The notes beneath the pieces are model-generated. The model searched no databases and was not told where the DNA came from. It saw only the letters and a program-made list of their open reading frames with translations. From Anaerolineae bacterium (GTDB lineage Bacteria; Chloroflexota; Anaerolineae; Aggregatilineales; Phototrophicaceae), in assembly GCA_022822545.1 (NCBI GenBank), contig JAJEBE010000049.1, forward strand, positions 124,001 through 188,000: a DNA stretch of 64,000 nt. The letters are read 5' to 3'. The position numbers and the translations under genes are program-made. Positions within the stretch are counted from its first letter, which is position 1. The number at the start of each line of letters is the position of its first letter. Shown here one piece after another: positions 525 to 57,018 of this stretch.

Positions 525-598
525 TCGGGGCGGCGGGATTTGAACCCACGACCTCACCGACCCGAACGGTGCGCGCTACCGGGCTGCGCCACGCCCCG
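525..598 (-). tRNA. tRNA-Pro (anticodon CGG)
   Basis: The reverse complement folds as a complete 74-nt cloverleaf: acceptor CGGGGCG paired with CGCCCCG, D stem GCGC/GCGC, anticodon stem CACCG/CGGTG around loop TTCGGGT (anticodon CGG, reading CCG), a 5-nt variable loop, T stem GTGGG/CCCGC with loop TTCAAAT, and discriminator A at 525. CCA is not encoded; the next bases are CTAA. It is expressed alone from its own promoter. Confidence 0.96.
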
Positions 599-41630: not shown

Positions 41631-42977
41631 CTATCCGGCAGCGCCATGGTTAGCAGGGGCCGACACGCTTGCGTCGCGCGGGTCTAGGATCGGCATGACT
41701 TCTTTCACTGTACCATGAATCTCGCCCTCGGTGAATGTATCTAGTCCGGTAGAGGTGACAATATTGCTCAAGTCGCGCGGATGTACGGCGCGAACGCGCA
41801 TATAATTGTCGGTGTAGCCCGCGTTGATGAATCCTCGCGGTGTGGCGCCAATGACCTGTTCCCAGAGGACCGATTGTACTGTGCCAAGCAGGCGTTCGGC
41901 GAACTCTTGCTCCATTTGCCGGGACAAGTCGAGCAGTTTGGCGCTGCGCGCTTTCTTGACTCGATTGCTGATCTGATGCCGCATGCGGTTTGCTGGCGTG
42001 CCGGGCCGGCTGCTGTATCGAAAGACGTGGAGACCGCCGAATTCCATCTCTCGGATAAAGCGCTCCGATTCGGCGAATTCGTCGTCGGTCTCTCCGGGGA
42101 ACCCGACAATGACATCGGTGGTGATTCGCAGTTCTGGAATCAGATCGCGCGCCGCTATAATCAGCGCGCGAAACTGCTCTTGATTCGTGTGCCGGCGCAT
42201 GCGTTTGAGTGTAGCGTCGCAGCCGCTTTGGAGGGGCAGATGCAGATGGCGACAGAGCCGCCGATTTTTCCACAGCGCGAAGAAAGCCGGCGTCAGGTCC
42301 CAAGGCTCAAGTGAAGAAAGACGGATCCGCGGCATCGTCGTCTCCGAGAGCAAGGCTTCCACAAGATGCTTTAACCCGTGGCGATCGCCAAAGTCATGAC
42401 CGTAGCTGCCCAGATGCACACCGGTAAGGACGGCTTCTTGATAACCGCCGCGCCGCAGGTAATTCACTTCGCGCACAAGATCAGGGATGGAACGGCTGCG
42501 TCCCGCGCCGCGAGCTATTGTGGTGACGCAGAAGGTGCAGGCGTTGTCGCAGCCGTCTTGCGCTTTTACGAAGGCGCGCGTCTTTCCCAGAAGACCGATT
42601 CCGGACTGACGCGCGATTGGCTCGGCGTCGAATTCGTCTACGGTTTCGCCGGTGACCAGCGCTACAAGCCTGGATTTGCTGCTGTTATCGATGACTCGCC
42701 GCACGCCGGGCAGATGACGTATTTCATCCGGCGCGATCTGGGCATAACAGCCGGTCACAGTGGTTTCGCCGCTTGACTTGCTTCGCTGGAAATCGCGAAT
42801 GAACTTGCGACTCGTTTTGGTCGCCTCCTTGGTTACAGCGCAGGTATTGAGGACGAAATGGTCGGCTTCTTCCGGCGAAGCAACGACCTCGTGACCCAAT
42901 GCCTTGAACTGCCGCGCCATAGCGTCGATTTCGCTCTGGTTGAGCCGGCAGCCGACCATGCGCAAATGCACTTTCAT
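41631..42977 (-). CDS. mtaB: tRNA methylthiotransferase MtaB
   Basis: This radical-SAM enzyme converts t6A37 to ms2t6A in tRNAs decoding ANN codons. The 448 residues have the UPF0004 domain with cluster cysteines C10 (MVGCRLNQSE), C46 and C77, the radical-SAM C-x3-C-x2-C at C143/C147/C150, and a C-terminal TRAM-like domain (WEQVIGATPRGFINAGYTDN). The VGCRLNQSE N-terminus is that of MtaB rather than MiaB or RimO. Its ATG overlaps the stop of the upstream gene (ATGA). Confidence 0.94.
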   Translation of the reverse strand: MKVHLRMVGCRLNQSEIDAMARQFKALGHEVVASPEEADHFVLNTCAVTKEATKTSRKFIRDFQRSKSSGETTVTGCYAQIAPDEIRHLPGVRRVIDNSSKSRLVALVTGETVDEFDAEPIARQSGIGLLGKTRAFVKAQDGCDNACTFCVTTIARGAGRSRSIPDLVREVNYLRRGGYQEAVLTGVHLGSYGHDFGDRHGLKHLVEALLSETTMPRIRLSSLEPWDLTPAFFALWKNRRLCRHLHLPLQSGCDATLKRMRRHTNQEQFRALIIAARDLIPELRITTDVIVGFPGETDDEFAESERFIREMEFGGLHVFRYSSRPGTPANRMRHQISNRVKKARSAKLLDLSRQMEQEFAERLLGTVQSVLWEQVIGATPRGFINAGYTDNYMRVRAVHPRDLSNIVTSTGLDTFTEGEIHGTVKEVMPILDPRDASVSAPANHGAAG

Positions 42978-43906
42978 AGTCTGGCGTCCTCACGGCCTGT
43001 CTCAGCCGGACTGTATACAATCATGTCGTCAAAGCGCACAACCACGCCGCCGCCTCCGGTCGCGGTCGATTGCGCGATCAATCCGATTTTCCCGCTGCGA
43101 TTCATCTCGTCCCGGTAGGTATCGAGCATACTTCCGTTGACGCACTCTCCGCCGGAATATGTGCTTGCGGCACCCGCGTCATCGGGAATGCATAGACTGA
43201 CGTTCACATCGTTGATGAAGAATTGATAGCGGGAACCCCGCGACAGAATGCGAATCGCATTTTCCGCGCCGATGCCCTGATTGATGTGAGGCGAGGCGAT
43301 CCAACCGCTCAGCGCATTCGCCGCGCCGTCTTCCGTTCGCCAAAGTGAATAGTAGCCGTCGCTGCTGATCATGAAGGCTTTGTAGCTGGTTGTCGGCCGT
43401 CCGTCAAAGGCTTGCCGCAAGGCCGCGCCGGCTAACGGCGAAAGCTCGCTGATTCCACAGAGTAAGATGGCCGGTAGCGTACAGGAGTCGTCCGCTGCCA
43501 CCTCGACGTGGAAGACCAACCCAAATGCGTTGTCCAGCGGACCCGCGATTGCGCTGGCCGAAACGCTCACATCGAAATCAGCAAATCGTGGACTGGAGGC
43601 GGACCAGGCGGCAGTCCGCGTATCAGCCACAGAGATTTCCAATTGCTCCGCGACAATCCGGGCGCTCTGCCGGCCTGCAAACAAATCCCAGTCCTCGCTG
43701 TAGGCGGAGAAGGCGGAAACATAAAGCAATGCCCCGTCCCTGCCGGCAAGCGCTTCGGTTGGCTGTGCCAGCGCACTGTATGTCAGGTTGGCCGCGATCA
43801 AAGCGAGCGTGAGACAGACGCACAGTACAAAAATGCGCGCGCTTGCCGTCAGGCGCCGCTGCCCGGAATCGGATGCGTTGCTGGATCCCGCCACCAAATG
43901 AGCCAT
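42974..43906 (-). CDS. Exported membrane-anchored protein, LamG/DUF1080-like, unknown function
   Basis: This is a 310-residue protein with a hydrophobic segment at ~24-45 (ARIFVLCVCLTLALIAANLTY). The extracytoplasmic part is beta-rich and resembles concanavalin-like (LamG/DUF1080) domains: FADFDVSVSASAIAG, AFGLVFHVE, YYSLWRTEDG, YQFFINDVNVSL, KIGLIAQ and VVVRFDDMIVY follow the usual strand order. A loop carries three or four cysteines. No catalytic residues are evident. It overlaps mtaB by 4 nt and heads the minus-strand run through yqeY, pgpH and ybeY. Confidence 0.75.
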   Translation of the reverse strand: MAHLVAGSSNASDSGQRRLTASARIFVLCVCLTLALIAANLTYSALAQPTEALAGRDGALLYVSAFSAYSEDWDLFAGRQSARIVAEQLEISVADTRTAAWSASSPRFADFDVSVSASAIAGPLDNAFGLVFHVEVAADDSCTLPAILLCGISELSPLAGAALRQAFDGRPTTSYKAFMISSDGYYSLWRTEDGAANALSGWIASPHINQGIGAENAIRILSRGSRYQFFINDVNVSLCIPDDAGAASTYSGGECVNGSMLDTYRDEMNRSGKIGLIAQSTATGGGGVVVRFDDMIVYSPAETGREDARL

Positions 43907-44048
43907 GGCACATCGCTTGTAAATTGCGCGATTTTAGCATAGGGTCTCGCTGCCGTAAACGATGAGCGGACGCAGCCCGGCGCATATTGACAGGCGTCGG
44001 TTGCGAGTGGGCATACGTGCGCTCTAGCTGAGAACGCGAGATCTATAC

Positions 44049-44077
44049 TTGACAGCTTTAGACGCGCTTGCTAGATT
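44049..44077 (+). promoter_or_regulatory. Strong sigma70-type promoter of the aspartate kinase leader
   Basis: A perfect TTGACA (44049-44054), a 17-bp spacer and an extended -10, TGC-TAGATT (hexamer 44072-44077), would start transcription near 44084, about 25 nt before the leader ORF. It is the closest match to consensus found in this window. Confidence 0.75.
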
Positions 44078-44108
44078 TGCCGTCAGATTGAGACGAATCG
44101 GATCGGCG

Positions 44109-44195
44109 ATGTCGAGAACAGCCGCTATGGGCATGACTATGACCTCGACTATGATGCGCCAGGGCGCGCAACGTGGAGGTTTTGGTTTGTTGTAG
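44109..44195 (+). CDS. Met/Thr-rich leader peptide of aspartate kinase
   Basis: This is a 28-codon ORF from ATG 44109 to TAG 44193 (or 22 codons from ATG 44127). Codons 7-16 read MGMTMTSTMM, i.e. five Met and three Thr in ten codons, then RQGAQRGGFGLL and stop. Such a run of codons for end products of the aspartate pathway is what attenuator leader peptides such as E. coli thrL use to sense charged tRNA. No strong Shine-Dalgarno is visible (GGAT at 44100-44103 is the best), so the exact start is uncertain. The last codons overlap the antiterminator arm at 44173-44183. Confidence 0.65.
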   Translation: MSRTAAMGMTMTSTMMRQGAQRGGFGLL

Positions 44196-44250
44196 GCGGA
44201 ACGAAGCGAGCAGCAAACGGGCGTGTGGAAAACCTCCACACGCCTTTTTT
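44173..44250 (+). promoter_or_regulatory. Transcription attenuator: mutually exclusive antiterminator and terminator
   Basis: GTGGAGGTTTT (44173-44183), inside the leader ORF, is perfectly complementary over 11 nt to AAAACCTCCAC (44229-44239). That target overlaps the loop and 3' arm of the terminator hairpin, so the two structures exclude each other. Between them, 44185-44192 pairs with 44211-44218 (8 bp, one G-U), bringing the arms together. A possible protector, ACCTC (44142-44146), can pair with GAGGT (44176-44180). A ribosome stalled at the Met/Thr codons would leave 44173-44183 free and allow readthrough; one reaching the stop would cover it and permit termination. Confidence 0.7.
44220..44250 (+). 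terminator. Intrinsic terminator in the aspartate kinase leader
   Basis: A perfect 10-bp G+C-rich stem (44220-44229 with 44235-44244) and a 5-nt loop are followed directly by six Ts (44245-44250). It lies 104 nt before the kinase ATG and downstream of the kinase's own promoter, so it acts on the leader transcript. Confidence 0.85.
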
Positions 44251-44353
44251 GTTTTCGAGAGTTGTCTGCAAGGGTCTATTGATCTGCGCAAGGAATAAGG
44301 ATCATTCTTAAGCGATACCACGTAAAGCATTTCGCGAAGGAAAGGAATGTGTG

Positions 44354-45799
44354 ATGGCTAGATATACGATGAAGTTCGGCGGCACATCGGTTGGATCCCC
44401 GGAGGCAATCGCCCAGGTCGTCGAAATCGTCAAAGGCTTCCTTGCTGAGGGGCATGAGTTGGCGGTTGTTGTCTCGGCGATGGCCGGCGTTACCGATATG
44501 CTCTTGGAGTCGGCCACAGCGGCAGCCGCGCGCGATCGCGCCAAATACTTGGCGATCAGCGATGTGCTTCGTCAAATGCACAGTAGCGTGATAGAAGGGT
44601 TGATCGACTCCGAAGCCGACCGCGCGGCCATCGAGACCGAGATGGAGGAACTGCTCCGCAGTCACCTTGAGCTATGTGAAGCCGTGTATATTCTTGGCGA
44701 AGTCACGCCGAGGATATCGGATGCGCTTGTATCTTTTGGCGAGCGCTTGAGCAGCCGAGTTATTGCCGCGGTCATGCGAGCGGGGGCCCTGCCGGCCAGG
44801 CAGTTCGACTCGGACGCCTTCATCGTCACCGACAATCAGTTCGGCGACGCGGAGCCGATATGGGATGAGACTGAGGCCCGCGTCGCCGGCCCGCTTCGGC
44901 AGGAGCTGGATGCCGGCCTTACGCCTATCATCACCGGCTTCATCGGCGCCACGCCGGACGGCACGATCACGACGCTGGGACGGGGCGGCAGCGATTACAG
45001 CGCGGCGATTTTTGCGGCCTACCTGGATTGCGACGAGCTGGTGATTTGGACCGATGTCGATGGCGTGATGACAACCGATCCGCGTTTGGACGAACGAGCG
45101 CGCGTCTTGCCTTATGTGTCGTATCAGGAAATCGGCGAGCTTGCGTTCTATGGAGCCAAAGTGCTGCATCCCAAGACAGTACAACCCATTATCAATCGCG
45201 GCGTTCCGCTGCGCGTGCGCAACACATTTAATCCGGACCATTCGGGCACCCTTGTGGGCGCCAGGACGCAAGCCAGCGCCACCGTGATAAAAGCCGTCAC
45301 CGGCATCAGAGATGTCTCTATGCTGACCGTCAGCGGCCGCGGCATGCTCGGCGTGCCGGGCATTGCGGGGCGGACCTTCCTGGCCTCCGCCAATGCCGGC
45401 GCCAATATCTTGATGATCTCGCAATCTTCCTCGGAGCAGAGCTTCTGCTTCACCGTGGTTGATCCGCTGGCGCAGGCGGTCAAATCAGCGGTGGAGACGG
45501 AATTGCAGCGGGAGATCCAGCACAACAACGTGGATAGCGTGGATGTGCTCTCCGATATCGTGATTATCACTGTGGTCGGTTCCGGCATGCGCGGAACGCC
45601 GGGCGTGGCGGGGCGGGTCTTTTCGCTCTTGGGGGAAAACCGGATTAATGTGCTGGCGATCGCGCAAGGGTCATCCGAGTGCAGCATTTCCTTCATCATT
45701 GCCGAGGAAGATCTTGAGAAGGCGGTGGGGGAGTTGCACAGCCTCGCGCTGGAGACAGTTGAGAACGACAGGATAAACGGGGTCGGCAGCCCGTATTAA
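44354..45799 (+). CDS. Aspartate kinase (ThrA/LysC-type, two ACT domains)
   Basis: Aspartokinase phosphorylates aspartate, the first step to lysine, methionine, threonine and isoleucine. The 481-residue protein starts with the family motif KFGGTSVGS; TLGRGGSDYSAAIFAA and WTDVDGVMTTDPR complete the kinase domain. The tandem ACT domains contain ISQSSSEQSFCF and IAQGSSECSISF, as in the kinase part of ThrA-type enzymes, usually the threonine-inhibited group. There is no homoserine dehydrogenase domain. AAGGAA (44341-44346) precedes ATG 44354. It is monocistronic and controlled by the attenuator upstream. Confidence 0.95.
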   Translation: MARYTMKFGGTSVGSPEAIAQVVEIVKGFLAEGHELAVVVSAMAGVTDMLLESATAAAARDRAKYLAISDVLRQMHSSVIEGLIDSEADRAAIETEMEELLRSHLELCEAVYILGEVTPRISDALVSFGERLSSRVIAAVMRAGALPARQFDSDAFIVTDNQFGDAEPIWDETEARVAGPLRQELDAGLTPIITGFIGATPDGTITTLGRGGSDYSAAIFAAYLDCDELVIWTDVDGVMTTDPRLDERARVLPYVSYQEIGELAFYGAKVLHPKTVQPIINRGVPLRVRNTFNPDHSGTLVGARTQASATVIKAVTGIRDVSMLTVSGRGMLGVPGIAGRTFLASANAGANILMISQSSSEQSFCFTVVDPLAQAVKSAVETELQREIQHNNVDSVDVLSDIVIITVVGSGMRGTPGVAGRVFSLLGENRINVLAIAQGSSECSISFIIAEEDLEKAVGELHSLALETVENDRINGVGSPY

Positions 45800-56665: not shown

Positions 56666-57014
56666 GCCGGGTTGACTGAGGGGATCGCGGCAGGTCTGGC
56701 GCCTGTCGAGGAAAGTCCGCACTCCATAGGGCAGCGATGCCGGTTAACGGCCGGGCAGGGCAACCTGACGGCAAGTGCAACAGAGAGCAGATTGCATCGC
56801 GAGATGTGAGGGTGAAAGGGTGCGGCAAGAGCGCACCGGCAGCGGCAGTAATGTGGCTGGCCAGGCAAACCCCATCGGGAGCAAGGTGAAGCAGGCGCCG
56901 GGGAGCGGCCCGCTCCGCAGAAAGCGCCGGGTACACCGCTAGAGATCGGCGGCAACGTCGATCCCAGATAGATGATTCCCCACGACAGAATGCGGCTTAT
57001 GAGGTTGACCCGGC
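56666..57014 (+). ncRNA. rnpB: RNase P RNA (bacterial class A)
   Basis: The catalytic RNA that matures tRNA 5' ends. The 5' strand starts GCCGGGTTGACTGAGG. The near-universal core elements are present: GAGGAAAGTCCGCACTCC (56708-56725; P4/J3-4 region), a central GGTGAAAGGGTGCGGCAAGAGCGCACC hairpin region, GCAAGGTGAAGCAGGC, and the 3' core ACAGAATGCGGCTTATGAGG. The termini GCCGGGTT and GACCCGGC pair as helix P1, fixing the ends within a few bases. Minus-strand ORFs over this region are shadows. Confidence 0.96.
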
Positions 57015-57018
57015 CTAT

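Follow-up and report, generated by a model that had tools for sequence, protein, structure and literature searches.

The biosynthesis of methionine and threonine begins with aspartate kinase, and lysine is the other product of the pathway. The question raised by the locus described here is how the gene of such a kinase is controlled from the region in front of it. The window, meaning the whole stretch of DNA analyzed, comprises 64,000 nucleotides from an Anaerolineae bacterium, and the coordinates of the locus refer to it. The kinase gene is located on the plus strand (44351/44354 to 45799, with the ATG at 44354 favored by relatives) and encodes a protein of 482 amino acids, which matched TIGR00657 with 402.7 bits (cut-off, 208.7). 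The kinase stands alone and is not fused to a homoserine dehydrogenase. A preliminary description had proposed that its gene is preceded by a leader-peptide attenuator responding to Met and Thr. Ribosome-mediated transcription attenuation is very probably the best explanation of this region.

All elements of the leader are on the plus strand. The promoter (44049 to 44077) is of the sigma-70 type and was read directly as TTGACA (-35, 44049 to 44054), a spacer of 17 nt, and TAGATT (-10, 44072 to 44077), the latter preceded by TGC as an extended -10 element. A promoter scan recovered the same promoter with 10 of 12 consensus matches and the TG present. The TTGACA and TAnnnT columns were almost invariant among 35 aligned leaders, and a loose TTGAC...TA...T match was found 5' of 77 of the 85 leaders, compared with 2% of shuffles. 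Transcription would start about 25 nt 5' of the leader open reading frame (ORF). This ORF extends from the ATG at 44109 to the TAG at 44193 to 44195, encodes a peptide of 28 amino acids (MSRTAAMGMTMTSTMMRQGAQRGGFGLL), and has homologues in relatives. No enrichment of a Shine-Dalgarno sequence was seen at the start of the homologous leaders. Codons 7 to 16 (44127 to 44156) read MGMTMTSTMM. In the six frames of the window, no other 10 consecutive codons included eight or more Met or Thr, three or more of them Met, and 20 Markov-1 resamplings of the window yielded no such run.

Pairing counts revealed a small hairpin within the ORF (TGCGC/GCGCA, 44155 to 44170), which is possibly an RNA polymerase pause hairpin. 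It is followed by the antiterminator arm, GTGGAGGTTTT (44173 to 44183), which is a perfect complement, over 11 nt, of AAAACCTCCAC (44229 to 44239) in the loop and 3' arm of the terminator. The arm is separated from the stop codon by 9 nt, a position in which it would be masked by a ribosome that has reached this codon. According to folding and pairing counts, the antiterminator is extended by an inner helix between 44185 to 44192 and 44211 to 44218. The intrinsic terminator (44220 to 44250) consists of a 10-bp stem (44220 to 44229 and 44235 to 44244), an AAACC loop, and six T residues (44245 to 44250), and it ends 100 nt before the kinase gene. A terminator scan of positions 43800 to 44500 detected a single terminator-like site, at 44219 to 44245. 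Folding of the leader was 4 standard deviations better than that of dinucleotide shuffles (z, -4.0). On direct reading, the promoter, the ORF, the Met and Thr codons, the arm and the terminator agreed to the base with the preliminary description.

These elements suggest the following mechanism. If either Met-tRNA or Thr-tRNA is in short supply, the first ribosome on the transcript would stall within the control codons and leave the antiterminator arm free. The free arm would pair with its complement as the terminator loop emerges, so that the terminator would form too late and transcription would read through into the kinase gene. When both charged tRNAs are plentiful, the ribosome would reach the TAG and cover the arm, and the terminator would form. 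The leader would then be an OR gate with the two homoserine-branch products as its inputs, and would be expected to regulate the kinase gene in vivo.

To examine the conservation of the leader, homologues that retain the terminator but lack the Met/Thr run and the arm were looked for, as the preliminary description had named these as evidence against its proposal. In the same genus, the orthologous kinase gene was preceded by a Met/Thr-rich ORF (27 to 35 amino acids) and a terminator in 34 of 34 genomes, and the complementary arm was present in nearly all of them, in some with a mismatch or bulge. Most loci elsewhere in the class were alike. In a survey of 80 kinase loci in named genomes, the leader was present at all 27 loci of the same genus and at 46 of the 53 loci of other Anaerolineae, where the Met/Thr-dense ORF was located 20 to 41 nt 5' of the terminator. 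A terminator was found in nearly every homologous leader, and the differences in ORF length were whole codons, with the frame kept. In a different family of the same order (f3), seven genomes shared the layout but differed in the peptide tail and had an unrelated arm, for example, MPIETAFSFVTMTTTMTTSTMMMGGRTMPVASRAKRSD. In the f3 leader L080, the arm GCCGGTTGCT pairs with AGCAACCGGC. Several genomes of f3 and a few outside it lacked the leader, and the arm was weak or interrupted in L012, L014, L034, L121, and L156.

In its own genome, the covariance model built for the leader recovered only this locus, along with the opposite strand of its hairpin. Among 151 genomes of the phylum, no convincing matches to the model were obtained outside the order. 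The matches inspected came from the same class, those elsewhere being weaker; they proved to be ordinary terminators, in two cases next to GATGAC-type repeats, and were rejected as leaders. As judged from the sequences, the arrangement of the leader is not due to chance, and its comparative conservation is the decisive evidence.

The preliminary description had suggested covariation in both stems as a check. The expectation held for the terminator, whose covariation was above that of 500 of 500 shuffles. It did not hold for the antiterminator within the genus, where the helix is nearly invariant and covariation was no higher than in shuffles. Since the same-genus antiterminator was too conserved for covariation counts, arms and terminators were swapped across lineages. 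The pairing of arms with their own terminators was stronger than that with swapped ones (-16.9 versus -14.3 kcal/mol, mean of 45 leaders), and none of 5,000 random re-pairings was as good as the own terminators, although kinship among the leaders makes these figures indicative. The preference persisted when the genus and f3 were left out (32 leaders; 0 of 20,000 re-pairings, again an indicative figure, since related leaders are not independent). Matching changes in arm and terminator included GTTTT/AAAAC, GTTGT/ACAAC, and GTCT/AGAC.

Folding of growing transcripts was modeled with a ribosome whose footprint was assumed to reach 13 nt beyond the A site. For a ribosome placed at the last core Met codon (RNA free from 44168), the antiterminator was predicted for transcripts ending at 44236 to 44242, with a mean pair probability of 0.84 to 0.90 and together with the inner helix. 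The terminator won under these conditions only once its 3' arm was fully exposed. When the ribosome was placed at the stop codon, the terminator formed from the start, and without a ribosome, it was likewise dominant by 44242. The antiterminator outcompeted the terminator in 36 to 39 of 45 leaders when the last 4 to 6 nt were hidden and in 10 of 45 at full length. In equilibrium folding of the full-length leader, the terminator was favored in most leaders despite a stalled ribosome, indicating that the switch must be kinetic. The truncation folding shows that the full-length equilibrium is the wrong comparison, which was therefore rejected. The proposed attenuation thus appears well supported by what can be seen in the sequences and in folding models, namely, the anatomy and conservation of the leaders, the preferential pairing of arm and terminator, and the switch reproduced by truncation folding. 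Support for attenuation also comes from other attenuator candidates of fitting codon content in the same order, one of them in the same genome; these are described below.

Codon content was analyzed in 45 dissimilar leaders with the start codon left out, and non-leader small ORFs from the same regions served as controls. Met and Thr together made up 33% of the leader residues versus 8% in the controls. The frequency of Met was 12.8% versus 2.1%, a six-fold enrichment, and that of Thr was 20.6% versus 5.6%. No enrichment was detected for Lys (2.0% in leaders versus 4.4% in controls). In the codon alignment of the same-genus leaders, Thr was encoded by ACT (82 codons), ACC (59), ACG (35), and ACA (22), and codon position 1 was the most conserved and position 3 the most variable. 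The use of all four Thr codons along with the conservation of position 1 indicates selection on codon meaning. Most same-genus sequences have Met or Thr in the core columns, and the two interchange there. The composition of the leaders and their synonymous variation argue that Met and Thr are sensed at the level of codons.

The interchange at the same core columns would also be expected from single-step mutations if the leader responded to only one amino acid, Thr or Met, the other being its mutational neighbor (ATG and ACG are one transition apart). A few leaders that are mostly Thr (L128, with one Met and seven Thr) or mostly Met (L141, with six Met and two Thr) are consistent with such a response. 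However, at least one Met and at least two Thr beyond the start codon were kept in 85 of 85 leaders, and the commonest Thr codons, ACT and ACC (141 of 198), are two changes away from ATG. The six-fold enrichment of Met and the lack of enrichment of Lys also argue against a single sensed amino acid, which we consider rather unlikely. In the sister family f4, the equivalent kinase genes are preceded by a SAM-I riboswitch in place of the leader (L042, L044, and L046), indicating that the aspartate kinase gene accepts methionine status as an input. Sensing of both amino acids by the leader is likely.

The leader might act through its peptide, the nascent chain stalling the ribosome in response to a ligand (Met, Thr, or SAM) in the manner of arrest peptides. 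The peptide tail RGGF.LL is indeed highly conserved within the genus, but it coincides with the RNA arm, and in lineages with other arms the tail is of the FRLP or PAASGARSR type, and only the Met/Thr composition persists. Peptide arrest is thus very unlikely. Still less probable is a metabolite riboswitch or a protein-bound antiterminator with an incidental ORF. The leader is well structured, and the sister family does use a SAM-I riboswitch at its kinase genes, but no Rfam family matched the leader. Moreover, its conserved structure is limited to the terminator, the antiterminator, and the small in-ORF hairpin, and its most persistent features are the reading frame and the Met/Thr content. 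Intrinsic terminators are common, but an ordinary terminator of the upstream gene or a chance ORF can be dismissed, as the upstream gene (42974 to 43906) is on the minus strand, opposite to the leader, a promoter precedes the terminator, and conservation of the arrangement extends to some 80 genomes.

The amino acids for which leader-peptide attenuation is established are Trp, His, Phe, Leu, Ile/Val, and Thr/Ile (parts of this are covered by PMC12925634 and PMC1262725). The attenuators concerned (trpL, pheL, hisL, and ilv/leu; trp/ilv in Actinobacteria; hisS/hisZ in Firmicutes) share their principle and anatomy with the leader described here, which differs in Met as the presumptive sensed amino acid and in its phylum, Chloroflexota. 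The closest likeness is to the thr operon of Escherichia coli (thrL, RF00506), with a peptide rich in pathway amino acids, an antiterminator/terminator switch, and a target containing aspartate kinase. While thrL mediates attenuation by Thr and Ile through the ribosome (PMC12925634), the present leader has Met in place of Ile, a stand-alone kinase as its target, and a Chloroflexota host. The Rfam model Thr_leader (RF00506) did not match the leader even at E values up to 5. The best Rfam match was RF04312 (trpB) at 22.9 bits, below its gathering score of 59, and no family was assigned.

The SAM-I riboswitch (RF00162) shares its target with the leader in that it precedes the equivalent kinase of f4, but its aptamer senses SAM; no such aptamer was found in the leader by the Rfam search. 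The T-box (RF00230) likewise senses tRNA charging but does so by binding tRNA directly, and its model had no match in the leader. Both occur elsewhere in the genome. Two SAM-I riboswitches precede metK and a gene for a Cys/Met pyridoxal phosphate (PLP) enzyme, and three T-box matches, two of them above the gathering score, precede a valS-like gene, trpE (trp operon), and pheS rather than the kinase (gene names were read from the sequences). The window itself also contains an RNase P RNA (class A; 56668 to 57016, plus strand) and a tRNA gene (525 to 598, minus strand).

In 2010, such attenuators were held to be unknown beyond Proteobacteria and Actinobacteria before the His case in Firmicutes (PMC2965389), and in Actinobacteria no RNA element was found at Thr or Met operons (PMC1262725). 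The preliminary description considered a combined Met and Thr sensor undescribed, which holds in Rfam and in the open-access literature, where no report was found of a Met or Met/Thr leader peptide or of any leader peptide in Chloroflexota. The novelty lies in the presumptive pair of sensed amino acids, the arrangement of the target, and the phylum, while the working principle is classical. The leader would extend leader-peptide attenuation to Chloroflexota and to methionine and would represent a naturally occurring sensor with two inputs, placed where metabolism branches.

No Met/Thr leader was detected in the regions checked for the second aspartate kinase of this genome and of relatives, and the homoserine dehydrogenase gene is located closely behind another gene, without a leader. 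The kinase under the Met/Thr leader may be the one devoted to Met and Thr. With moderate confidence, we propose that a ribosome-based sensor of Met or Thr sets the entry into the homoserine branch, that it is widespread in Anaerolineae and swapped for SAM-I in the sister family, and that it belongs to a wider, undescribed attenuation in Chloroflexota, with Phe/Tyr leaders before aromatic genes as well. The occurrence of the Met/Thr leader in some families and SAM-I in another would be a clean exchange of tRNA-charging and metabolite sensing at the same gene. The set of some 85 leaders permits direct tests of the coevolution of codon choice and RNA pairing.

Three other leader candidates were observed. 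The candidate second attenuator in the same genome (L253; genome G000, contig C41, approximately 2085 to 1940, minus strand) consists of the ORF MHDLQVASFRYYYPNCIDRSG and a terminator. It precedes a small aroH-like gene, a prephenate dehydrogenase-like gene, and an EPSP synthase-like gene, and related DNA was found in 22 of the 25 same-genus genomes searched. In genome G057 (contig C43, near 26271 to 26158, minus strand), the leader MRGYFGFYFYYWGDIAPGRALSAAV (L233) is rich in Phe, Tyr, and Trp codons and precedes aroH-like, DAHP synthase-like, and prephenate dehydrogenase-like genes. In genome G036 (contig C162, near 42260 to 42690), the Phe-rich leader MILLMKHFTFSFTRFTTLLGRRK (L255) with its terminator resembles pheL of E. 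coli and precedes a prephenate dehydratase-like gene, followed by an asd-like gene.
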